Assembly: GCF_030996345.1 (NCBI RefSeq)
Contig: NZ_CP118747.1
Coordinates: 2,168,001 to 2,232,000 of the forward strand
Direction: 5' to 3'
DNA length: 64,000 bases
Source of the DNA: Acidithiobacillus sp. AMEEHan
Lineage (GTDB): Bacteria > Pseudomonadota > Gammaproteobacteria > Acidithiobacillales > Acidithiobacillaceae
Positions 276 to 58,692 of this stretch are shown here, in pieces. Positions within the stretch are counted from its first letter, which is position 1; the number at the start of each line of letters is the position of its first letter. A program made the position numbers and the translations under genes. The notes under the pieces were generated by a model. The model did no database searches. It saw only the letters and a list, made by a program, of their open reading frames with translations, and was not told the origin of the DNA.

Positions 276-1196
276 CTAGCGCGATTGACTACCGTGACGC
301 CAAGCCTCCCACGCATCGCGCAGGCGGTGGCGATGAGGGTCCAGATAGGTAATTGCAGCGCCCTCCTCCATCCGGTGTAACGACTCCCGTATCAGACGCT
401 GCGTCTCTTTCGCGAGTTCTCTCCGACCCAGTTGCGGCGACAAGGGCGAACCGAAGTGGATGCGCAGGGTGAGCGGTGCCGAGGCCGTGAGCCGCCACAG
501 ATGTCCCGCAAGGGTATCGTCGCCAATGAATGGGCAGACCCGATCCGCACGTCCGGGACGGAGGACATCCTCATAACGCAGGGTAACCGGTACCACCATA
601 GTGCCAGAACTGACGGCGGTCTCGAAAGGAGCGGCGAAAAAGTCGCCAACGTCCGTGCCGTCGCTTGTCGTCCCCTCGGGAAAGATCGTGAGAATACGGC
701 CATCACGAAGAACCTTGGCCGCCTCTTTCAAAACCCGCTGACTGGCCCTAGCGTCGCTACGGTCGATGAAGAAGGTTCCCAGGCGACGTGCCAAACGCCC
801 AAAGAGAGGCCAAGACTCCATCTCCTTTTTGGCGACAAACTGACCTGGGCGAATCGCGGCGAGTGCCAGAATATCCAGATAGGATACGTGATTGGCCGCC
901 AACATTGTCGGCGCCATCGGCAAGGTCCCAGCTACCCGGAGCCGGATTCCCAGGATGCGCAGCGCAACGCCACACCACCAGCGAAATACCGCCAGCGCCG
1001 ATCCATCGATTTCCGCCTTGCGTCCGTAGTACCACCAGCTCAGGGGAAACGCCAGAACCAGATGCAGGCCGAGGGCGGGGATACGCCACAAGCGGCGATA
1101 GAAACGCGGTTTGCTGCGCCGCAGGATGCGGTCGCTGGGGTACGGGATCAGTTGCGCTTGTGCAGACGAGGAGCGACGTCGCCAACGAAAGATCAT
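276..1196 (-). CDS. olsA: Lyso-ornithine lipid O-acyltransferase (PlsC/LPLAT family)
   Basis: A 306-residue membrane-associated acyltransferase of the 1-acylglycerol-3-phosphate acyltransferase family. The family box NHVSYLD lies at residues 102-108 and FPEGTTS at 172-178; one hydrophobic segment sits near residues 40-57. I chose the ATG at 1196 because it overlaps the olsB stop as ATGA; an in-frame start at 1301 would lie far inside olsB. The overlap with an OlsB-type N-acyltransferase suggests that this enzyme adds the second, ester-linked acyl chain to lyso-ornithine lipid rather than acting only in phosphatidic acid synthesis. That assignment is inferred from context, since family membership alone would also fit PlsC. 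It shares the Pho-box promoter in front of olsB. Confidence 0.8.
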   Translation of the reverse strand: MIFRWRRRSSSAQAQLIPYPSDRILRRSKPRFYRRLWRIPALGLHLVLAFPLSWWYYGRKAEIDGSALAVFRWWCGVALRILGIRLRVAGTLPMAPTMLAANHVSYLDILALAAIRPGQFVAKKEMESWPLFGRLARRLGTFFIDRSDARASQRVLKEAAKVLRDGRILTIFPEGTTSDGTDVGDFFAAPFETAVSSGTMVVPVTLRYEDVLRPGRADRVCPFIGDDTLAGHLWRLTASAPLTLRIHFGSPLSPQLGRRELAKETQRLIRESLHRMEEGAAITYLDPHRHRLRDAWEAWRHGSQSR

Positions 1197-1969
1197 TTGC
1201 CTTGGGCCACAGGATCCAGAAAACGTTGCTGGTAGCGCGAAGTAATCAGTCGTGAATCGCACCATACAAAAAAGTCGGCGCAGTGAAACTGGGGATCCCA
1301 ATACGGCTCGCCTCCCAGCCGCACTCCCGCCCGTAAGTAGCCTTTCAGCAGTGTCGGCAACTCGACCGGCTCCACCTGAGCGTCGGGATCGAAGCCGGGT
1401 ACCGGGCGCAGGGGAAACACGCGCTGTTCGGCTGGCACCATCTGCTGCTCCAGCGAACGATAGAGGGCACCAAGCGCCGGACCATTGGTGCTATGCACGC
1501 TGGCGCAACCCATGAGATGTTCGATGTCCCACATGCCCATGGCCTCTGCCAAGCCTGACCAAAGAAGAACGATCACGGCGCCTTGGCGATAGTCTGGATG
1601 TACGCAAGATCGACCGAGTTCCATGACCCGCGAGCCGAGTGCCAAGGGACGCGACAGGTCGAATTCTGTCTGCGCGTAGTAGCGCCCTACCTTGGCTACC
1701 TGTTCCGGCAGGAAAAGTCGGTAGGTACCGACTACTTCCTGTCGAACCTCATCCTCGACGATCAGGTGCTCGCAGAAGGGATCATACTCATCCTGATCGA
1801 TTCCCGGCGGGCCACTTAGCTGGGCACCAAATTCCGCACTGAAAACTCGATAGCGCAGCCGCTGCGCCGCCTCGATCTCGTCCTGATGACGAGCGAGATA
1901 CAGTCGCAGCGAGCGCTCGCCCTTTTTGGTATTACGACCCATGTCTTTCTGGACTTGCGTTTCGAGCAT
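1193..1969 (-). CDS. olsB: L-ornithine N-alpha-acyltransferase (OlsB, GNAT fold)
   Basis: A 258-residue protein of the OlsB family (hemolysin-like GNAT acyltransferases), which transfers a 3-hydroxyacyl chain from acyl-ACP to ornithine, the first step in phosphorus-free ornithine lipid. Family features include LRYRVFSAEFGA near residue 40, the SRVMELGRSCVHPDYR acceptor-loop segment near 110-130, and GCASVHST. The ATG at 1969 has a GGGGA element upstream. It overlaps olsA by four bases, so the two are probably cotranslated. A set of four Pho half-sites lies 52-91 bases upstream, which fits the known phosphate-starvation induction of ornithine lipids in other bacteria. The substrate is inferred from family membership. 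Confidence 0.85.
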   Translation of the reverse strand: MLETQVQKDMGRNTKKGERSLRLYLARHQDEIEAAQRLRYRVFSAEFGAQLSGPPGIDQDEYDPFCEHLIVEDEVRQEVVGTYRLFLPEQVAKVGRYYAQTEFDLSRPLALGSRVMELGRSCVHPDYRQGAVIVLLWSGLAEAMGMWDIEHLMGCASVHSTNGPALGALYRSLEQQMVPAEQRVFPLRPVPGFDPDAQVEPVELPTLLKGYLRAGVRLGGEPYWDPQFHCADFFVWCDSRLITSRYQQRFLDPVAQGK

Positions 1970-2004: not shown

Positions 2005-2060
2005 AGTATGACCAAAAACTATGACAATAGTGCGACAGTTTTATGACATTTTGATGACAA
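2005..2060 (-). promoter_or_regulatory. Pho-box promoter of olsBA
   Basis: Read on the minus strand, TGTCAT-type heptamers occupy 2054-2060, 2043-2049, 2032-2038 (degenerate) and 2021-2027, each exactly 11 bases apart, the spacing of PhoB half-sites. Ten bases after the last one lies CATACT (2010-2005), a 4/6 match to the -10 hexamer. The same 10-base distance is seen at pstS and pstB in this window. The site points at olsB and there is no convincing -35, as expected for PhoB activation. Confidence 0.82.
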
Positions 2061-2122: not shown

Positions 2123-3433
<1,311 letters not shown>

Positions 3434-11857: not shown

Positions 11858-12775
11858 CTATCGGTAGCTTCCCCGCTTACGCAACTGCCAGATCACCATC
11901 CATCGTCCGAGCAGAATCAGACTCAGGACCACCAGGGTGATTAAAAACGCTGCTGCAAAAGCCAAGACATGGGCCTCCTCAAAGGGCTCATTGATGAAGG
12001 TCCAGATGACATAGGTGAGATAACCAATGGGCTGATTGGTGAACTGGCCGTTCCACATGTAGTTTGACCAACCCGCGGTATAGATCAAGGGGGCGGTTTC
12101 ACCCATTGATAGGGCCAAAGCATAAAACAGTCCGGTCATGACTGCTGGCAATGCCCCAGGGAGAAGAATACGCAGGATGACCGTACCCTCCCCTGCCCCA
12201 ATACCAAAACCCGCTTCACGTACCGCAGGCGGAATGTTGGACAGGGCCATTTCGGTGGTCCGGGCAATGTATGGCAGTAACATCACGCTCAGGGTGAGGA
12301 TTCCGGCCGCTACGGAAAACTGCCATCCGAGATAAATCACCATGGTGATATACCCCACATACCCGAGGACAATGGAGGGTACCCCTACCAAGACGTCGGA
12401 GAGAAAACGTAGCGCTTTACCTGCCAGACCAGTACCAAATTCACTCAGGTAGATTCCAGCGGCAATTCCGATGGGCGCAGCAATGAGCAGAGATCCCAGC
12501 GAGAGCACCAAGGTACCCTCAATGGCATTCTTGAGGCCGCCGCCCATGCCTGTGCTCACCTCTGTGAACAGGCTAAGTTTCAACCCCGGCAGGGCCTTGA
12601 TCAACACGTCCGCAATGATCGACAGAAACGCTGCCGCGACAATCACAAAACTTGCCCAAATGAAAACTGTACCTACGCCCCGAAAAACTTGACGTTTCCA
12701 GGAAATACGCGCGGCCTGTAAAGTGCCGCCACGCTTGATCTGGGTCACCGTACTGGAGAGATTTGATGCGCTCAT
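11858..12775 (-). CDS. pstA: Phosphate ABC transporter permease PstA
   Basis: A 305-residue inner-membrane permease with about six membrane segments, half of the channel of the high-affinity phosphate importer. The EAA-type loop (ALSNIPPAVREAGFGIGAG) is visible near residue 195. I place the start at the ATG at 12775, which overlaps the pstC stop as ATGA; an in-frame ATG at 12796 would lie inside pstC. No pstB follows: the next gene is the convergent maf, and the ATPase is encoded at 55793-56554. It is the last gene of the pstSCA transcript. Confidence 0.95.
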   Translation of the reverse strand: MSASNLSSTVTQIKRGGTLQAARISWKRQVFRGVGTVFIWASFVIVAAAFLSIIADVLIKALPGLKLSLFTEVSTGMGGGLKNAIEGTLVLSLGSLLIAAPIGIAAGIYLSEFGTGLAGKALRFLSDVLVGVPSIVLGYVGYITMVIYLGWQFSVAAGILTLSVMLLPYIARTTEMALSNIPPAVREAGFGIGAGEGTVILRILLPGALPAVMTGLFYALALSMGETAPLIYTAGWSNYMWNGQFTNQPIGYLTYVIWTFINEPFEEAHVLAFAAAFLITLVVLSLILLGRWMVIWQLRKRGSYR

Positions 12776-13731
12776 GTTCGTACTTTCGCTCCCCACAGGA
12801 TGAGCCGGGCAATGATGTTCACGATCACCGTCAAGATGAGCAGTACCAGGGCGATCTCTGCGAGGGCCTCTACTGCCATGTTGGTGGGATCCTGCAGCGC
12901 ACTCTCTAGCTGTGAGACAATGAAGGCTGCCATGGTCGAAATTGGCGTATAAATGTTGTTGGGTAAGTAGTTGAGCGCGTTACCACTGACCATGACCACC
13001 GCCATGGTCTCCCCGAGGGCGCGACCCAAGGCAAGTATGGAGACACCCACCAGGGTGGTCTTCAACTTGGGCAGGATGATGTGCCAAAGGACTTCGAGGC
13101 GATTTAGCCCCATGCCCAGGCCCGCTTCTTTCAGGGCTGGCTCTATGGCACTGATACCCTCGCGCATGGTCGCCGAAATCAGGGGGATGACCATGAACGC
13201 CAGCACGATGGCAGTGGTGAAGAGCCCGTATCCGCTCCCCGGACTGCCACCAAAGAAAGGGACAAAACTCAGATGACTGGCAAGCCAAGGAAAGACCGAC
13301 TGCCCTAAGAAAGGAATCAGCAGAGCGTACCCCCAAAGACCAAAAACCACACTGGGAATGGCCGCCAGGAGGTCCACCAGAAGTGCGAGCGGGCCAGACA
13401 ACCATTTGGGCAGCATTTCCGCCAAGAAGTAAGCCGTGGCAACGGCGATTGGTAAGGCAAAAATCAAAGCCAAAAAGGCGCTGGCAAGGGTACCTACCAC
13501 CAGAAACCAGATACCAAAACTGGCACCCGGCATAACCTGCTGGCCACGAATCTCGACGGGGTTTCCGTACAGGTTACCGAGGTCCCAATTGTTTTGCCAA
13601 AAAAATTCCAAGCCATTGTACTGAATCGCCGGCCAGGAATAGAGCGTGAGAAATACGACCAGTGCAATGAGCGACAGCGGCAGAAAACTTGCCGTGCCGA
13701 CCAAGCCGAAACGAAAAAACGATAGTTTCAT
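12772..13731 (-). CDS. pstC: Phosphate ABC transporter permease PstC
   Basis: A 319-residue inner-membrane permease that pairs with PstA. Membrane segments begin at about residue 10 (LVGTASFLPLSLIALVVF), and the EAA-type segment (ALKEAGLGMGLNRLEV) is near residue 210. I start it at the ATG at 13731, with GGGAG seven bases upstream; the in-frame start at 13824 would run into a predicted mRNA hairpin after pstS and adds unconserved sequence. It is translationally coupled to pstA. Confidence 0.95.
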   Translation of the reverse strand: MKLSFFRFGLVGTASFLPLSLIALVVFLTLYSWPAIQYNGLEFFWQNNWDLGNLYGNPVEIRGQQVMPGASFGIWFLVVGTLASAFLALIFALPIAVATAYFLAEMLPKWLSGPLALLVDLLAAIPSVVFGLWGYALLIPFLGQSVFPWLASHLSFVPFFGGSPGSGYGLFTTAIVLAFMVIPLISATMREGISAIEPALKEAGLGMGLNRLEVLWHIILPKLKTTLVGVSILALGRALGETMAVVMVSGNALNYLPNNIYTPISTMAAFIVSQLESALQDPTNMAVEALAEIALVLLILTVIVNIIARLILWGAKVRT

Positions 13732-13810
13732 GGTCTCCCTCCACTGGAGCAGGCCCCATAATAAACGTGCGGCGCTTCCAGAAAAAGAGCCGCAGCGTTG
13801 ATTATGCAAG

Positions 13811-13836
13811 GCACCGCAGCCCACGGACTGCGGTGC
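13811..13836 (-). repeat. Stem-loop between pstS and pstC
   Basis: A perfect nine-base inverted repeat (GCACCGCAG at 13811-13819, CTGCGGTGC at 13828-13836) with an eight-base loop lies just after the pstS stop. No T-run follows on the minus strand, so it is unlikely to be a full terminator. Such hairpins often protect the upstream mRNA end, giving more binding protein than permease. Confidence 0.65.
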
Positions 13837-13850
13837 GAAACGCCCCAGAA

Positions 13851-14936
13851 TTACTGGATCTTGGCAACCTGCTTGCGGGACAAGGCAACAGCGCTTTCCG
13901 GCAGGGGTACGAAGTTTACCTTCTCCATGAACTGCGGCGCATTGCCACCCTTCGGATCGAGGGCCCAGTTCAGGAAGTCACGCAGAGCAGCTGCCGTTTC
14001 GGGGTTCGGCTGCTTCGGGTTGACGATCGCGTATTCATAGTTGATGATCGGATAGGACTTCGGACCTGGCGCAAAAACCAGACTGATGCGCTCATCTGCA
14101 GGTGTCTTGCTGACCATCTCAGCCGCCGCCGCCTTGGCATTCTCCACCGTCGGCAGAACAAAATTACCCGCACGATTCTTCAGCATGGCAATACCGAGGC
14201 CCGCCTTTTCTACCGGTGCCTTCCAGCTGATGCCGATATACGCAACACCGTAGGGAGTGGACTTCAGCGCCTCGACCATGCCGGGGTTACCGACTGCGCC
14301 GATGCCACCCTGCACGTTCGGCCAGCTGACGGTGGTGCTATAGCCTACGCTCTTGGCCCAAGCCGGATCGGTGTCAGAGAGATAGGTGGTGAAAATGAAG
14401 GTATCCCCGGAACCATCGGTACGGTGGATGGGGATGATCTTGTGGTTGGGCAGCTTGATGCCGGGATTCATCTTGGCGATCTCAGGATCGTCCCAGTTGG
14501 TGATCTTGCCGGAATAGATACCCGCCAAAACCGGACCGGAGAGCTTGATGTGCTTCTTGTTTAGACCCGGCAGGTTGTAGTTGATCATCTGGATGGAGAT
14601 GGCCAGAGGGATGTTCAACATCGGGTGCATCTTGACCTGGGCGTCGGACATGTAGGCATCGGAAGCACCGATCTGCGCCACGCCAGAGATAGATTGGGCA
14701 ATACCCGTGCCGCTACCGGTACCCTGGGTGGTGATCTTCACGTTGGGATGCATCTTGGTATATTCCGGCACCCACAGGTTGAACAGGGGATACAACAGGG
14801 TGGAACCGGTCTCCAGCAGGCTGACCTGCGGAGCCGCAACAGCTGGAGTAGCGGCAGTGGCGGCGAGGCCGAGGAGGGATGCAACAACGGCACCCGTCAT
14901 AGCATGGGCGACGGTCTTCTTGAAACCTAGCAACAT
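13851..14936 (-). CDS. pstS: Periplasmic phosphate-binding protein PstS
   Basis: A 361-residue substrate-binding protein that delivers phosphate to PstCAB. A Sec signal peptide covers about residues 1-35, ending in ATPAVAA. The ligand-binding loops are typical: ETGSTLLYPL near 42-51, GSGTGIAQ near 73, and HRTDGSGDTF near 170. The ATG at 14936 has GGAGG four bases upstream. A five-half-site Pho promoter lies 81-147 bases upstream, so this should be one of the most strongly phosphate-regulated genes here. It heads the pstSCA transcript, which lacks pstB. Confidence 0.96.
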   Translation of the reverse strand: MLLGFKKTVAHAMTGAVVASLLGLAATAATPAVAAPQVSLLETGSTLLYPLFNLWVPEYTKMHPNVKITTQGTGSGTGIAQSISGVAQIGASDAYMSDAQVKMHPMLNIPLAISIQMINYNLPGLNKKHIKLSGPVLAGIYSGKITNWDDPEIAKMNPGIKLPNHKIIPIHRTDGSGDTFIFTTYLSDTDPAWAKSVGYSTTVSWPNVQGGIGAVGNPGMVEALKSTPYGVAYIGISWKAPVEKAGLGIAMLKNRAGNFVLPTVENAKAAAAEMVSKTPADERISLVFAPGPKSYPIINYEYAIVNPKQPNPETAAALRDFLNWALDPKGGNAPQFMEKVNFVPLPESAVALSRKQVAKIQ

Positions 14937-15016: not shown

Positions 15017-15083
15017 ATCATACCGAAAGTTCATGACACTATCATGAACCTTTTATGACACTTTTATGACACTTTTATGACAA
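15017..15083 (-). promoter_or_regulatory. Tandem Pho-box promoter of pstS
   Basis: Five PhoB half-sites of the TGTCAT type lie at 15077-15083, 15066-15072, 15055-15061, 15044-15050 and 15033-15039 (minus strand), each exactly 11 bases apart. The fourth is degenerate (GGTTCAT). Ten bases after the last one is TATGAT (15022-15017), a 5/6 -10 match. Two and a half consecutive boxes would allow cooperative PhoB loading. The array lies between pstS and the preceding oxidoreductase gene. Confidence 0.92.
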
Positions 15084-53553: not shown

Positions 53554-55062
53554 TCAAAAAAGAAGTTGGAATTCAGGAGCCAAAAGATCTCGTTCGTTTT
53601 CGAGCTCGGCGCGCAACAGCGGCGCCTGCCGTTGCCAGTCTTCCGCAAATTGCAGCTGCAGGGTCTTTCCCATGACCATCACTTCCGGCTGCTTTGCGAG
53701 TTCACTCGCACCGCGCTGGAGCAGAATGGCAAGGCGCAGAATGATCGCGAGCCTTTGCAGCGCTGGAAGATCTTCTGTCGCGATACCAAAACTCTGCAGT
53801 TGGACGCCACTGGGTAGCTTTTTGCGCTGCAGGCGGACCAGAGTGGCAATCAGGTTTTGCTCGCGCTGGGAAAATCCAGCGATGTCACCGTTGCGCCAGA
53901 TATATTCCCCATGTTTGTGAAAGCCCGAATGGGCGATATCCAGGCCAATGTCGTGGGTCAAGATCGCCCAGCGCAACCATCCCTGGTGAAGGTGGCTGAG
54001 TTCCCAGTCCCTGCTCGTGGCGGCAAGGATACGCTCGGCCCATTCCAGTACCTCGGCATTCCGTTCGCGCTGACTATGAAAGCGCTCCTGCAGCCCGTGC
54101 ACGCTGAGCTCCCGGCTATCCTCGTGATGGATCCGGCCGAGCAGATCGTAGATCGCGCCTTCTCGTAGAGCACCCTCGGAAAAGCGCATTTCCTGCAACT
54201 GAAAAGAGTCGAAAATTGCCGACAGAATGGCGAGGCCGCCCGGAAAAACTGGCACCCGATCGCCCTTCAAGCCTGCCAGTCGGGAAAGGGCGCGAAAACT
54301 TCCCAGGGAGAGCAGCTCCTCTTGCAGCCAACGCAAGCCCACTGCCGAGATTCGTGGACCACGGCCGTTCTCCTGCAGAATGCGGGCGATTGCCTTGATC
54401 GTACCGGAAGAACCAACCGCCTGATCCCAGCCAAAGCGGCGATACTCTCCGAGCACCGGCTCAAGGGCCAGACGTACGCGCCGCTGCAGAGCGGCGTAGG
54501 CATCGCGGCTGATTTTCTCGTCCGGGAAATATTCCTGCGTCGAACGCACGCAACCAAAATGCAGGCTTTCTCGGATACCGGGGCTGAAGCCTCGCCCCGC
54601 AACAATTTCCGTGCTGCCGCCGCCAATATCGACAACCAGACGCCGCTCCTCCGGGGCTAGCGCCAGGCTGTGCGCCACCCCTAGATAAATGAGGCGCGCC
54701 TCTTCCCGCCCGGCAACGATCTCCGCAGGGACGCCCAGGGCCGTTTCGATTCTGGCAAGAAAGTCCTTGGCGTCGCGCAACATCCGTAGAGTATTGGTCC
54801 CAATGACGCGAATGCGGTCCCGGGGCACGGAACGTAGCCGCTGGCCAAAGCGTTGCAGACAGTCGATGGCACGATCCGCGACCTCGGGCCGCAGTCCGCC
54901 GTCTGGACGCAAACCCTCGGCCAGACGCACGCCCTCTCGCAGCCGATCAAGTAGGCGAAGGTCTCCACCCACCTCTTCGGCGATGACCATATGAAAGGAA
55001 TTGGACCCCAGGTCGACGGCGGCGAGAAGATTTTGCTGCGGCAGACTGTCGTCACTGGACAT
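53554..55062 (-). CDS. ppx: Exopolyphosphatase Ppx/GppA family
   Basis: A 502-residue ASKHA-fold phosphatase that degrades polyphosphate or pppGpp. AAVDLGSNSFHMVIAEE near residue 14 and VDIGGGSTEIV near 145 are the phosphate-binding loops, and a C-terminal HD-like region has HDIGLDIAHSGFHKH. I start it at ATG 55062; TTG 55071 is in frame but poorly placed relative to the ribosome site. It overlaps no gene but follows phoU closely, and the Pho promoter at 56586 should control it, so polyphosphate breakdown is phosphate-regulated here. The choice between exopolyphosphatase and GppA cannot be made from sequence alone. Confidence 0.9.
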   Translation of the reverse strand: MSSDDSLPQQNLLAAVDLGSNSFHMVIAEEVGGDLRLLDRLREGVRLAEGLRPDGGLRPEVADRAIDCLQRFGQRLRSVPRDRIRVIGTNTLRMLRDAKDFLARIETALGVPAEIVAGREEARLIYLGVAHSLALAPEERRLVVDIGGGSTEIVAGRGFSPGIRESLHFGCVRSTQEYFPDEKISRDAYAALQRRVRLALEPVLGEYRRFGWDQAVGSSGTIKAIARILQENGRGPRISAVGLRWLQEELLSLGSFRALSRLAGLKGDRVPVFPGGLAILSAIFDSFQLQEMRFSEGALREGAIYDLLGRIHHEDSRELSVHGLQERFHSQRERNAEVLEWAERILAATSRDWELSHLHQGWLRWAILTHDIGLDIAHSGFHKHGEYIWRNGDIAGFSQREQNLIATLVRLQRKKLPSGVQLQSFGIATEDLPALQRLAIILRLAILLQRGASELAKQPEVMVMGKTLQLQFAEDWQRQAPLLRAELENERDLLAPEFQLLF

Positions 55063-55067
55063 AAGAT

Positions 55068-55781
55068 TCAATCCTGGAGCTGCTGGCGAACTTCCTCCAA
55101 GGGAATATGACGGACGTTGACACCTTTGACAAGGTAGATCACGTATTCACAAAGATTGCGGGCGTGGTCACCCACCCGTTCCAGGGCCTTTGCCACGAAC
55201 AGTGCATCAATGGCGGGGGTAATGGTGCGCGGATCTTCCATCATGTAAGTGATTAGGCGGCGCAACGCGGCACGATATTCCTGATTGAGCTCCTCGTCAC
55301 CCTTGGCGATCTCCAAGGCGGCATCTGCATCCCCATTGGCCAAGGCGTCCATGGCGCGACGAAGCATCTCCAGGGCGTGATCACCCATGATTTTGATGTC
55401 GCGCAGAAACCGACTATTGATGTTGTTGCTGCTGCGTTGCATTGACAGCGCCATGCTAGCGATTTTTACCGCTTTGTCGCCTACGCGCTCAAGGTCCGCA
55501 ATGGACTTGATCAGGGTCATCACCAGACGTAGGTCACCAGCCGCTGGCTGACGCCGGACCAGGATGTTGATGCACTCTTCTTCGATACGCAGCTCATACT
55601 CGTTGACGACACTGTCTCGACCGATGACCTCGTCGGCCAGTGTCTCGTTCTGTTGAAGCAGTGCAGTAAGAGCATTACGCACCTGCTCCTCCACGACGCC
55701 AGCCATGCGGTGCACAAGCTCATGTACTGCGTGAAGCTCGTCATCGAAGCGTTGGGAAACATGGGGATCGGCATTCATCAT
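55068..55781 (-). CDS. phoU: Phosphate transport regulator PhoU
   Basis: A 237-residue all-helical protein with two three-helix repeats carrying the metal-contact ExxxD segments (VVNEYELRIEEECIN; DLERVGDKAVKIA; ERVGDHARNLCEYVI). PhoU represses the PhoR-PhoB response when phosphate is plentiful through contact with the Pst transporter. The ATG at 55781 has AGGAG seven bases upstream. It follows pstB by 11 bases and precedes ppx in the phosphate operon. It is intact. Confidence 0.95.
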   Translation of the reverse strand: MMNADPHVSQRFDDELHAVHELVHRMAGVVEEQVRNALTALLQQNETLADEVIGRDSVVNEYELRIEEECINILVRRQPAAGDLRLVMTLIKSIADLERVGDKAVKIASMALSMQRSSNNINSRFLRDIKIMGDHALEMLRRAMDALANGDADAALEIAKGDEELNQEYRAALRRLITYMMEDPRTITPAIDALFVAKALERVGDHARNLCEYVIYLVKGVNVRHIPLEEVRQQLQD

Positions 55782-55792
55782 GATGACACTCC

Positions 55793-56554
55793 TTAACCAT
55801 AACGACCGGTAATATAGTCTTCCGTCTGCTTCTTCTGTGGATTGGTAAACAATTGCTGGGTCGGCCCAAACTCCACCATCTCGCCGAGATACATGAAAGC
55901 GGTAAAGTCAGAGACACGGGCCGCCTGTTGCATATTGTGAGTGACGATGAGCAGGGTAAAATGCTCGCGCAGTTCGGCCACTAGCTCCTCGATCTTGAGC
56001 GTCGCAATGGGATCCAGGGCCGAAGTGGGTTCGTCGAGCAGGATGACCTCCGGACGGACTGCCACGGCGCGGGCGATACACAGGCGTTGCTGCTGGCCAC
56101 CCGAGAGGCTCAAGCCGCTTTTCTTGAGATTGTCTTTTACTTCATCCCATAGGGCGGCCTGGCGTAGGGCCTGTTCTACCCGCTCGTCAAGTTCTACTTT
56201 GCGAAGCTTCTCGTAGAGCTTGATGCCAAAGGAGATGTTGTCGTAAATCGACATCGGGAAAGGCGTCGGCTTCTGAAAAACCATACCCACGCGGGCGCGC
56301 AGCAGGTTGATATTGTAGTTTGGCGCCAGAATGTCCTCGCCATCGAGCAAGACCTGACCCGTCGCCCGTTGCCCCGGATAAAGCGAGTACATGCGGTTGA
56401 AGACCCGCAGCAGGGTGGACTTGCCACAGCCTGACGGGCCGATGAAGGCAGTTACCCGATTGCTGGGCAGCTCCAGGTTGATTCCCTTCAAAGACTTGTT
56501 ATCGCCGTAGTAAAAATCCAGATTGCGTACGGAAATTTTCGCATTTTCTGTCAC
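55793..56554 (-). CDS. pstB: Phosphate import ATPase PstB
   Basis: A 253-residue ABC ATPase that powers PstCA. Walker [10 protein letters not shown] is at residues 39-47, signature LSGGQQQRL near 155 and Walker [13 protein letters not shown] near 172. The start is GTG 56554 with GGGAG seven bases upstream. Unusually, it lies about 41 kb from pstSCA, right after phoR, and has its own Pho promoter; the usual layout is pstSCAB-phoU. The subunits must therefore be made from two transcripts under the same control. Confidence 0.95.
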
Positions 56555-56585: not shown

Positions 56586-56619
56586 AGTATACCTGAGCTT
56601 TATGACACTTTAATGACAT
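56586..56619 (-). promoter_or_regulatory. Pho-box promoter of pstB-phoU-ppx
   Basis: Two PhoB half-sites (minus-strand ATGTCAT at 56613-56619 and GTGTCAT at 56602-56608) are 11 bases apart. Exactly 10 bases on lies TATACT (56591-56586), a 5/6 -10. The box overlaps the last codons of phoR, and the start site would fall just before pstB. Spacing and design match the pstS and olsB promoters. Confidence 0.85.
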
Positions 56620-57952
56620 CTTCTGTCGCTTCCTCTTGCCAGGAGTTCCCATACCGGGCCAGGTCAACCGGAAAAAAAACGGCAAATTCAGAACCTTTGC
56701 CCACTTCGCTGCGCACTTGCAGGCTGCCGGCGTAGCGTTCGGCTGTGTGACGAACGATCGACAGCCCCAAGCCCGTGCCTCCTACCCGGCGGGAGCGACC
56801 TTTGTCGACCCGGTAAAAACGTTCCGTGACCCGCTGCAGGTGTTCGCGCGGAATGCCATCGCCAGTGTCGCGTACGCGAAGCGCTAGACGCCCCTCCTCC
56901 ATAGACCACCGCACATAGATATCCCGTCCGCGCGGACTGTACTTGACGGCATTCTCGAGAAGATTCTGCACAACGCTGTGAATATCGAGGGGCTCGGCAA
57001 AAACCGCCAGGCCAAAATCCAGTTCCAGGTGCACGGAGAGGCTTTTTTCGACAATCGACGTCATCAGACTTTCACGTGTACGCTCCACCATCTGCGCCAC
57101 AAAAACCGTTTCGCAGCGCTGAGGATCGGGGGTGGCGCTTTCGACTCGCGCCAGAGAGAGTAAGTCCTCCACCAAAGATTGCATCCTCTTGCCCTGCTCC
57201 TCCATCAGACGCAGCTGCGGACCCGCTTCTTCGTCCTGCCCCAGAGGTCCATCGAGAAGGTTTTCGAGGAAACCCTGAATCACCGTCAACGGGCTACGCA
57301 ACTCATGAGATACATTCGCGACGAAATCCTGGCGCACCTGTTCCAGCTGACGCAGGCGGGAGATGTCGCGAAACAGCACTAAGGTTCCCGCATCTCCCAG
57401 GGGATAGCGCAACGCCTCGAAAATCGCATCTGGCCGATGCGGAAACTGCACGGCAAGATTCCCAGGGCCGGCCCCCTTGAGAAATTCCTGCATATGGGGC
57501 AGGCGTAGCCAGAAAGATAGTGGCTTGCCCAGATCGTCCGGCCAATGCAGATGAAACAGCTCGACCGCTGCAGGATTCATCCACAACAGGCGTCCGTCTT
57601 CATCCATCAGGAGCAGCGCGTCGGGCAAGGTTTGCAAGGCGTCGCGCAGTTGCATGATCTGGCGATTGAGCTGCTGTTGGCGGATTTCCTGATGTCGTCG
57701 CCAATGATAACCCTCTGCAAAGGTTTCTTCCCAGATGCCACTGCTTACCGGCGGAATCCGCGTCGTCTTCTCACGAAACCAGACGCGAAAACGCAATGCC
57801 TCCTGCCGGTGCCAGCCCACCCAGAGCGCGTAAAAGATCACGGCCGCCCAGAAAAAGGAGATCAGGGAGCTGCTAGGAGCGCCAAGGAGGTTCCACGCCA
57901 AGAGTATCGCCAGTGGTAGCAGGGCTGGAACCCAGGCGCGCAGATGGTTCAT
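56600..57952 (-). CDS. phoR: Phosphate regulon sensor kinase PhoR
   Basis: A 450-residue membrane histidine kinase. An N-terminal hydrophobic part (about residues 8-46) anchors it, a PAS domain follows (about 105-195: LPDALLLMDEDGRLLWMNPAA), the phosphorylated His216 is in FVANVSHELRSPL, and the ATP-binding N, G1 and G2 boxes end the protein (VQNLLENAVKYS, DTGDGIP, GGTGLGL). The ATG at 57952 overlaps the phoB stop as ATGA. Its last codons contain the Pho box of pstB, so there the stop region doubles as regulatory DNA. Confidence 0.95.
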   Translation of the reverse strand: MNHLRAWVPALLPLAILLAWNLLGAPSSSLISFFWAAVIFYALWVGWHRQEALRFRVWFREKTTRIPPVSSGIWEETFAEGYHWRRHQEIRQQQLNRQIMQLRDALQTLPDALLLMDEDGRLLWMNPAAVELFHLHWPDDLGKPLSFWLRLPHMQEFLKGAGPGNLAVQFPHRPDAIFEALRYPLGDAGTLVLFRDISRLRQLEQVRQDFVANVSHELRSPLTVIQGFLENLLDGPLGQDEEAGPQLRLMEEQGKRMQSLVEDLLSLARVESATPDPQRCETVFVAQMVERTRESLMTSIVEKSLSVHLELDFGLAVFAEPLDIHSVVQNLLENAVKYSPRGRDIYVRWSMEEGRLALRVRDTGDGIPREHLQRVTERFYRVDKGRSRRVGGTGLGLSIVRHTAERYAGSLQVRSEVGKGSEFAVFFPVDLARYGNSWQEEATEDVIKVS

Positions 57953-58692
57953 GGCGTCTCGCTAGCGAGTTCCGGGCTTTGTGGCTGAGGGTTGCAACGA
58001 TAACCTTCCCCGCGTACCGTTTCGATAATGTGGGCGTAGTGGACCTTCTCAAGACAGCGGCGCAGACGACGGATGTGCACGTCCACGGTACGTTCCTCGA
58101 TATAACTCTGTCTTCCCCAGATGATATCGAGCAGGGCATCACGGCTATACACCCGGTCGGGATTGGTGACAAAGAGCCGCAGCAAACGAAACTCCGTGGG
58201 CCCCATGGGTACCAAATAGCCGTTCAGGGTAACGCGGTGTGCCTTAACGTCGATACTGAGCTCACCGATCTGTACCCGATTGGGGCTCAGACCACCGTAG
58301 CTGCGGCGCAACAGGGCCTGCACTCGCGCGACCAGCTCCCGCGGCGAGAAAGGTTTGGCAAGATAGTCGTCGGCGCCAGACTCCAGGCCATGCACACGAT
58401 CGCCCTCTTCGCCGCGGGCAGTGAGCAAAATGATGGGGACACCTTGCAGCTTATCCCGCCGCCGGAGGTTGCGACACCAGGCGATGCCACTTTCCCCGGG
58501 AAGCATCCAGTCGAGGATGATCACATGGGGAGGCGCGTCATGCAGCAGCGGTTCTGCGGCCTCGACGCTCGCGGCGCAGGACACGGCAAAGCCATGCTTC
58601 TGCAAAGTCAGACGGAGAAGCTGCTGGATGCCTTCTTCATCTTCGACGACGAGAACCCGAAAGATTTGCTGCTCGTTGCTTTCCTCAGCCAT
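57949..58692 (-). CDS. phoB: Phosphate regulon response regulator PhoB
   Basis: A 247-residue OmpR-type response regulator. The receiver domain has the acidic cluster VVEDEE (about 15-20), the phosphorylated Asp61 in ILDWMLPG, and the switch residues in LLTARG and AKPFS. A winged-helix DNA-binding domain ends it (RTVDVHIRRLRR). I start it at ATG 58692, with GGGAG seven bases upstream; an in-frame reading back to 58965 lies inside mnmA. It should bind the three Pho boxes described here. I see no Pho box before phoB itself, so autoregulation is not evident. Confidence 0.95.
   Translation of the reverse strand: MAEESNEQQIFRVLVVEDEEGIQQLLRLTLQKHGFAVSCAASVEAAEPLLHDAPPHVIILDWMLPGESGIAWCRNLRRRDKLQGVPIILLTARGEEGDRVHGLESGADDYLAKPFSPRELVARVQALLRRSYGGLSPNRVQIGELSIDVKAHRVTLNGYLVPMGPTEFRLLRLFVTNPDRVYSRDALLDIIWGRQSYIEERTVDVHIRRLRRCLEKVHYAHIIETVRGEGYRCNPQPQSPELASETP

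Follow-up and report, generated by a model that had tools for sequence, protein, structure and literature searches.

The window, that is the whole stretch of 64,000 nucleotides analysed here, corresponds to positions 2168001-2232000 of contig C1 in a genome of 2.63 Mb. The gene order on its minus strand is purA (2123-3412), olsB and olsA, with a repeat array of the Pho box type in front of olsB. The features of the locus are the following.

276-1196, minus strand: olsA, a lyso-ornithine lipid O-acyltransferase-like protein of 306 aa (Pfam Acyltransferase, 4.9e-25; best NCBIfam OlsA model, 6.9e-38)
1193-1969, minus strand: olsB, an ornithine N-acyltransferase-like GNAT protein of 258 aa (Pfam Acetyltransf_5, 5.1e-34; best NCBIfam OlsB model, 3.9e-46)
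2005-2010, minus strand: -10 hexamer CATACT, 10 bases past the last unit of the array
2021-2059, minus strand: predicted four-unit Pho box array before olsBA, TGTCAT/TGTCAT/TGTCGC/TGTCAT at 11-base steps

The original prediction placed four PhoB-type half-sites at exact 11-base steps before olsBA, and such units are indeed found on the minus strand at 2059-2054 (TGTCAT), 2048-2043 (TGTCAT), 2037-2032 (TGTCGC) and 2026-2021 (TGTCAT). Three of them are perfect, the third has two mismatches, and they are separated by five bases of any sequence (N5). The further statement that the array ends 10 bases ahead of a -10-like hexamer also held, the hexamer being CATACT at 2010-2005, 35 bases from the olsB ATG. 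In PhoB-activated promoters some 10 bases separate the last unit from the -10 and a proper -35 is lacking, and the olsB promoter displays the same features, with TGTCA-type direct repeats at 11-base steps, a -10 at 10 bases and no recognisable -35. A consensus scan of 1900-2200 returned no sigma-70 promoter with both -35 and -10 hexamers, as expected for an activator-dependent promoter, and we therefore rejected an ordinary sigma-70 promoter for olsB. An array serving purA was also rejected, since purA lies on the same strand and ends before the array, which faces olsB. The ATG of olsA overlaps the stop codon of olsB (ATGA).

Two further Pho boxes and the Pho genes themselves lie in the same window.

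11858-12796, minus strand: pstA, after pstC; NCBIfam match above cut-off
12772-13824, minus strand: pstC, after pstS; NCBIfam match above cut-off
13851-14936, minus strand: pstS; NCBIfam match above cut-off
15033-15082, minus strand: pstS Pho box array of five units, the fourth GTTCAT, then 10 bases and TATGAT at 15022-15017
53554-55071, minus strand: ppx/gppA-like gene, after phoU
55068-55781, minus strand: phoU, after pstB
55793-56554, minus strand: pstB, then phoU
56602-56618, minus strand: pstB Pho box of two perfect units, then 10 bases and TATACT at 56591-56586
56600-57952, minus strand: phoR sensor kinase (TIGR02966, 373.7 bits against a cut-off of 334.2)
57949-58692, minus strand: phoB, 247 aa from the ATG at 58692 (TIGR02154, 301.1 bits against a cut-off of 296.2)

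The geometry at olsB had been described as identical to that at pstS and pstB; this is correct for the 11-base register and the 10-base spacing to the hexamer, but not for the number of units, which is four, five and two, respectively. The pstB Pho box (56586-56618 with its -10) shares bases with the end of phoR, including its stop codon, so that pstB and the genes downstream of it seem to own a promoter apart from phoBR. The pstSCA genes are found about 40 kb away from this box.

To set the olsB array against chance expectation, the four-unit pattern was counted in the window with up to 3 mismatches. It gave three matches, one at olsB and two in overlapping registers at pstS, while 100 dinucleotide shuffles of the window gave a mean of 0.00 and a maximum of 0. 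In the whole genome the three-unit pattern had 13 matches, falling in 7 places including olsB, against 1 in the backward control, and the two-unit pattern with a -10 had 59 against 8; a first loose pattern with a leading C was uninformative (180 matches against 87 in the control). A weight matrix trained on the five pstS and pstB dimers only, as had been proposed for a genome scan, was scored on the window and eight genome stretches and gave the olsB dimers 22.3, 17.8 and 12.4 bits. The seven top positions in the window all lie inside the three arrays, the first two olsB dimers ranking 5th and 7th. The best score outside the arrays was 14.6 bits, above that of the third olsB dimer, which alone would thus not stand out.

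OlsB is present in 27 of the 29 genomes of the Acidithiobacillaceae, at 28 loci, two of which belong to the same genome (G005); no OlsB match was obtained in G013 (85% complete) and G020 (71% complete). Leaving out G027, where the start of the gene is missing, 27 loci could be read, and in 26 of these the array and the -10 stand ungapped at the same place in an otherwise diverged upstream sequence. The one locus lacking the array is the second olsB copy of G005 (L066, on G005:C37; the genome is rated 7% contaminated), the other copy of which has it. When this second copy was excluded, the mean information per column of the 26 aligned loci was 1.61 bits for the 39-base array and 1.50 for the spacer and -10. 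The leader had 0.77, the last 20 columns ahead of the ATG 1.09, and the 59 columns on the upstream side of the array 0.43. In G024 and G025 the array is retained, with units 1, 2 and 4 weakened. The 21 related loci that carry a name are 18 from Acidithiobacillus, 1 from Candidatus Igneacidithiobacillus taupoensis and 2 from Proteobacteria bacterium, the closest (97%) being those of an Acidithiobacillus sp. MAG and of Acidithiobacillus sp. YTS05, which fits the guess from the sequence that the host is a probable acidophile.

The third unit is the exception within the array, also across the family. Among the 26 aligned loci it reads TGCCGC in 14, TGTCGC in 10 and CGTCGC in 2, never TGTCAT, and it sits within a conserved CGCAC stretch. 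For this unit (window 2032-2037), a search for CGCACTATTGTCAT with one mismatch allowed gave a single occurrence in the genome. A unit kept off-consensus in this way could carry a second input. It might, for instance, be the site of another regulator, or be deliberately weak so that phosphate acts together with an acid or metal signal in setting how much ornithine lipid an extreme acidophile has; we regard this as a speculative idea that is probably wrong.

Outside the family, OlsB alignment gave matches in 84 of the 276 genomes searched as a sample of the Gammaproteobacteria; some of the weakest, in frames of about 600 codons, may be OlsF. The test set consisted of the 28 non-family loci among the 30 best-scoring OlsB loci, the window's own locus and that of G019, another family member, being left out. 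An array score was calculated from four units and a -10 at +10, with hand-set weights that follow the E. coli consensus and the 10-base spacing of the window, and three controls (reverse complement, reversed sequence and coding sequence) were scored identically. A score of at least 14, a threshold that is not independent because the weights were fixed after hexamers at +10 had been seen, was reached by 24 of the 28 olsB loci and by 0 of 28 in each of the three controls, a proportion that gives no estimate for all olsB genes, since the set was made up of the top OlsB matches rather than sampled at random. The 24 loci span 19 of the 22 families, including that of G182, which belongs to the same order but another family. 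Four loci (G088, G299, G274 and G152) fall below 14, and the lowest three of the 24 score 14.0-14.2. With thresholds of 10, 12, 14 and 16 the number of positive loci was 27, 26, 24 and 21 of 28, compared with 2, 1, 0 and 0 for the reverse complement, 1, 0, 0 and 0 for the reversed sequence and 0 throughout for coding sequence (n=28).

The remaining predicted Pho-type sites were found in the genome stretches. They precede polyphosphate kinase 2 (above its NCBIfam cut-off), a phosphate:H+ symporter-like carrier (TIGR00887, 327.8 bits, below the cut-off), two more MFS carriers, two OprD-like porins, an ABC ATPase, a MotA/ExbB-type protein, an orphan PhoB-like regulator and a TonB plug protein; as sequence predictions, the best dimer scores 25.4 bits and the site at the TonB plug protein 15.8. 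The orphan regulator (G000:C1:2376741-2377526, or L067:3742-4527, minus strand), with its own Pho-type array upstream, adjoins genes for an LpxH/PlcP-like metallophosphoesterase and a GT4 glycosyltransferase (G000:C1:2377727-2379585, or L067:4728-6586, plus strand). These two are a possible second Pho-linked lipid-remodelling pair, where PlcP denotes a likeness and not a test, since among the NCBIfam models the phosphoesterase matches LpxH best, and does so below the cut-off. The pair resembles the plcP-agt1 genes of Pseudomonas aeruginosa, where genes for PlcP and a glycosyltransferase likewise have a Pho box close by (PMC8528852); the identity here is putative, and the P. aeruginosa genes serve a glycolipid route, not ornithine lipid.

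The phosphoesterase occurs in 29 of the 29 family genomes at 30 loci, of which 29 were used, one per genome, with L154 omitted. In genera g1 and g3 the glycosyltransferase is its neighbour at 10 of 10 loci (61-100% identity), and among the other 19 loci there were 5 weak matches (26-35%) and 14 without any in flanks of up to 1.5 kb. A two-unit box with the 10-base spacing faces the phosphoesterase in 13 of the 29 loci, scoring 18.4-22.7, where the reversed control reaches 13-14 in five and the coding control 12.1 in one. As for the other loci, 9 including that of our own genome have a strong array facing the opposite way (27.5-41.1), 3 have a weaker one (about 16) and 4 have neither. We consider it a lead that most family genomes have Pho-type boxes close to the PlcP-like phosphoesterase, which in 10 of them adjoins the glycosyltransferase.

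What lipid the olsBA genes would produce depends on the identity of the two acyltransferases. OlsB aligns to NF052554 over residues 18-249 of its 258 and is below the NCBIfam equivalog cut-offs (157.9 bits against 350 and 139.7 against 320), but these models are named for OlsB of the Rhodobacter and Brucella types, so the miss lowers the name and not the likeness. The best OlsA model gives OlsA 130.3 bits with a cut-off of 300, and the PlsC-type model TIGR00530 gives it 98.4 bits with a cut-off of 102.95. The search for a solved-structure relative of OlsB had a peptide hydrolase at E 0.42 as its sole match. Ornithine lipid was described decades ago in Thiobacillus thiooxidans, judging from the titles cited. 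Since these older titles name the lipid, olsBA is its likely source, and the use of ornithine by OlsB is suggested by the titles together with the lack of another candidate. Where OlsB was found there is one locus per family genome, save for the two in G005. The OlsF profile has matches in 27 of the 29 family genomes, all at olsB loci, and none of the 29 is above the 620-bit cut-off, for which reason an OlsF identity was rejected for the family. The T. thiooxidans lipid reportedly came from ordinary phosphate-containing cultures, which suggests that there is basal synthesis too and that Pho control may increase the amount of the lipid instead of turning its synthesis on. The wording of the original prediction, that ornithine lipid replaces phospholipid when phosphate is scarce, may therefore be too strong.

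Several known systems bear comparison, among them that of the alphaproteobacterium Sinorhizobium meliloti. Both S. meliloti and Vibrio cholerae form phosphorus-free lipids through PhoB on phosphate limitation (as cited in PMC11828411 and PMC7814305), the accumulation in V. cholerae depending on OlsF according to a title cited in PMC11828411, which is a difference from the olsBA genes here. In Acinetobacter baumannii a Pho box precedes olsB, as it does here, olsB is induced by phosphate limitation and formation of the lipid is PhoR-dependent (PMC11828411). A. baumannii olsA has no Pho box and does not respond to phosphate (PMC11828411), whereas the olsB and olsA genes of the window overlap; the A. 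baumannii wiring was tested by experiment, while ours is known from sequence. Pho boxes before olsB have also been predicted in Burkholderia sensu lato, in 21 of 43 genomes with a first matrix and in 43 of 43, given as "data not shown", with a second matrix derived from the first sites (PMC7814305). That study shares with ours the prediction of such boxes across a group of genera, the group being Burkholderia and not the Acidithiobacillaceae. For A. ferrooxidans PhoB-binding sites have been marked at the pst operons, with induction on phosphate limitation given as a personal communication (PMC10322971), and ornithine lipids have been found in acidic pit lakes, assigned to no species in the text examined (PMC7565709). 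In the literature searched under the name Acidithiobacillus, no paper also mentions olsB. Pho-controlled olsB is thus already known from other bacteria, and the conservation throughout the family and the class is the result added here.

Collectively, the counts in the window and genome, the conservation in family and class and the E. coli-like DNA-reading stretch of PhoB strongly support Pho control of olsBA, which we consider very likely on this sequence evidence. The full reading, that PhoB activates olsBA and that ornithine lipid is made or increased under phosphate scarcity, we put at a probability of about 0.87. Under low phosphate PhoR would phosphorylate PhoB, dimers of which would occupy the four direct repeats at 2059-2021 and bring RNA polymerase to a promoter with CATACT and without a recognisable -35 at the usual distance. 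The olsB and olsA genes, overlapping at ATGA, would then be transcribed together, and phosphorus-free ornithine lipid would be made or increased. The steps of PhoB binding, induction and co-transcription, as well as the identity of the lipid with its amino acid and its physiology, including the sparing of phosphate, are what we infer from the above, and the same holds for a rebuilding of the membrane on phosphate starvation.

A chance origin of the repeat is so improbable that we rejected it, considering the matrix scores, the genome pattern counts, the empty 100 shuffles of the window and the array at the equal place in 26 of 27 family loci. A different question is which protein reads the array. 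The DNA-binding domain of PhoB, aligned to chains 1gxp and 3t72 of its E. coli counterpart, has IEERTVDVHIRRLR where E. coli has VEDRTVDVHIRRLR, and this DNA-reading stretch equals that of E. coli PhoB save for two conservative changes. We take the stretch to be the recognition helix of PhoB. The orphan regulator mentioned above might read the olsB array instead of PhoB or along with it, as it has a PhoB-like DNA-binding domain and a Pho-type array of its own, and its homologues with E <1e-40 occur in 20 of the 29 family genomes; moreover, G024 and G025, with their weakened olsB arrays, are without such a homologue. Yet its helix differs (TVAAQIHRLR, compared with TVDVHIRRLR), the array precedes olsB far beyond the family too, and of the 9 genomes with weaker matches (best E 1e-26 to 4e-10) 5 have an unweakened olsB array, 2 a weakened one and 2 no olsB. 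Pfam recognised no receiver domain in the orphan protein; an Asp aligns with the acceptor region of PhoB, and the Lys of the KPF stretch is replaced. We find a role for this protein at olsB very unlikely and regard PhoB as the probable reader of the array.

Even with Pho control being real, the product might not be ornithine lipid, or not only, if the GNAT protein acylates lysine or another amino acid. The head group is uncertain because OlsB and OlsA are under their cut-offs and because the Acinetobacter OlsB and OlsA are required for both ornithine and lysine lipids (PMC11828411). Against this, the aminolipid that the cited titles name for T. thiooxidans is ornithine lipid, and no other OlsB- or OlsF-like locus is present in the family genomes, save the second copy in G005, which makes a different head group quite unlikely. 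It is somewhat easier to imagine, while still improbable, that ornithine lipid is largely constitutive and related to acid, the array doing no more than adjust it, with phosphate as a minor input. The old naming of the lipid in T. thiooxidans and the ordinary culture conditions reported for it would agree with this, as would Burkholderia sensu stricto, where ornithine lipid is constitutive despite predicted Pho boxes in five species (PMC7814305). However, the consensus scan offers no ordinary -35/-10 pair at the promoter, and upstream of olsB only the array, the -10 and the region just before the ATG are well conserved. Activation of olsBA by PhoB remains our preferred reading.

The class result (24 of 28, in a set made up of top OlsB matches and not drawn at random) suggests an old control of olsB by Pho that is general in Gammaproteobacteria, as opposed to a number of separate cases. 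The wiring at olsBA also offers a possible regulatory setting for the early chemical work on the ornithine lipid of T. thiooxidans. For biomining bacteria the prediction is that the phosphate supply should set the ornithine lipid of the envelope, which may bear on their tolerance of acid and metals.
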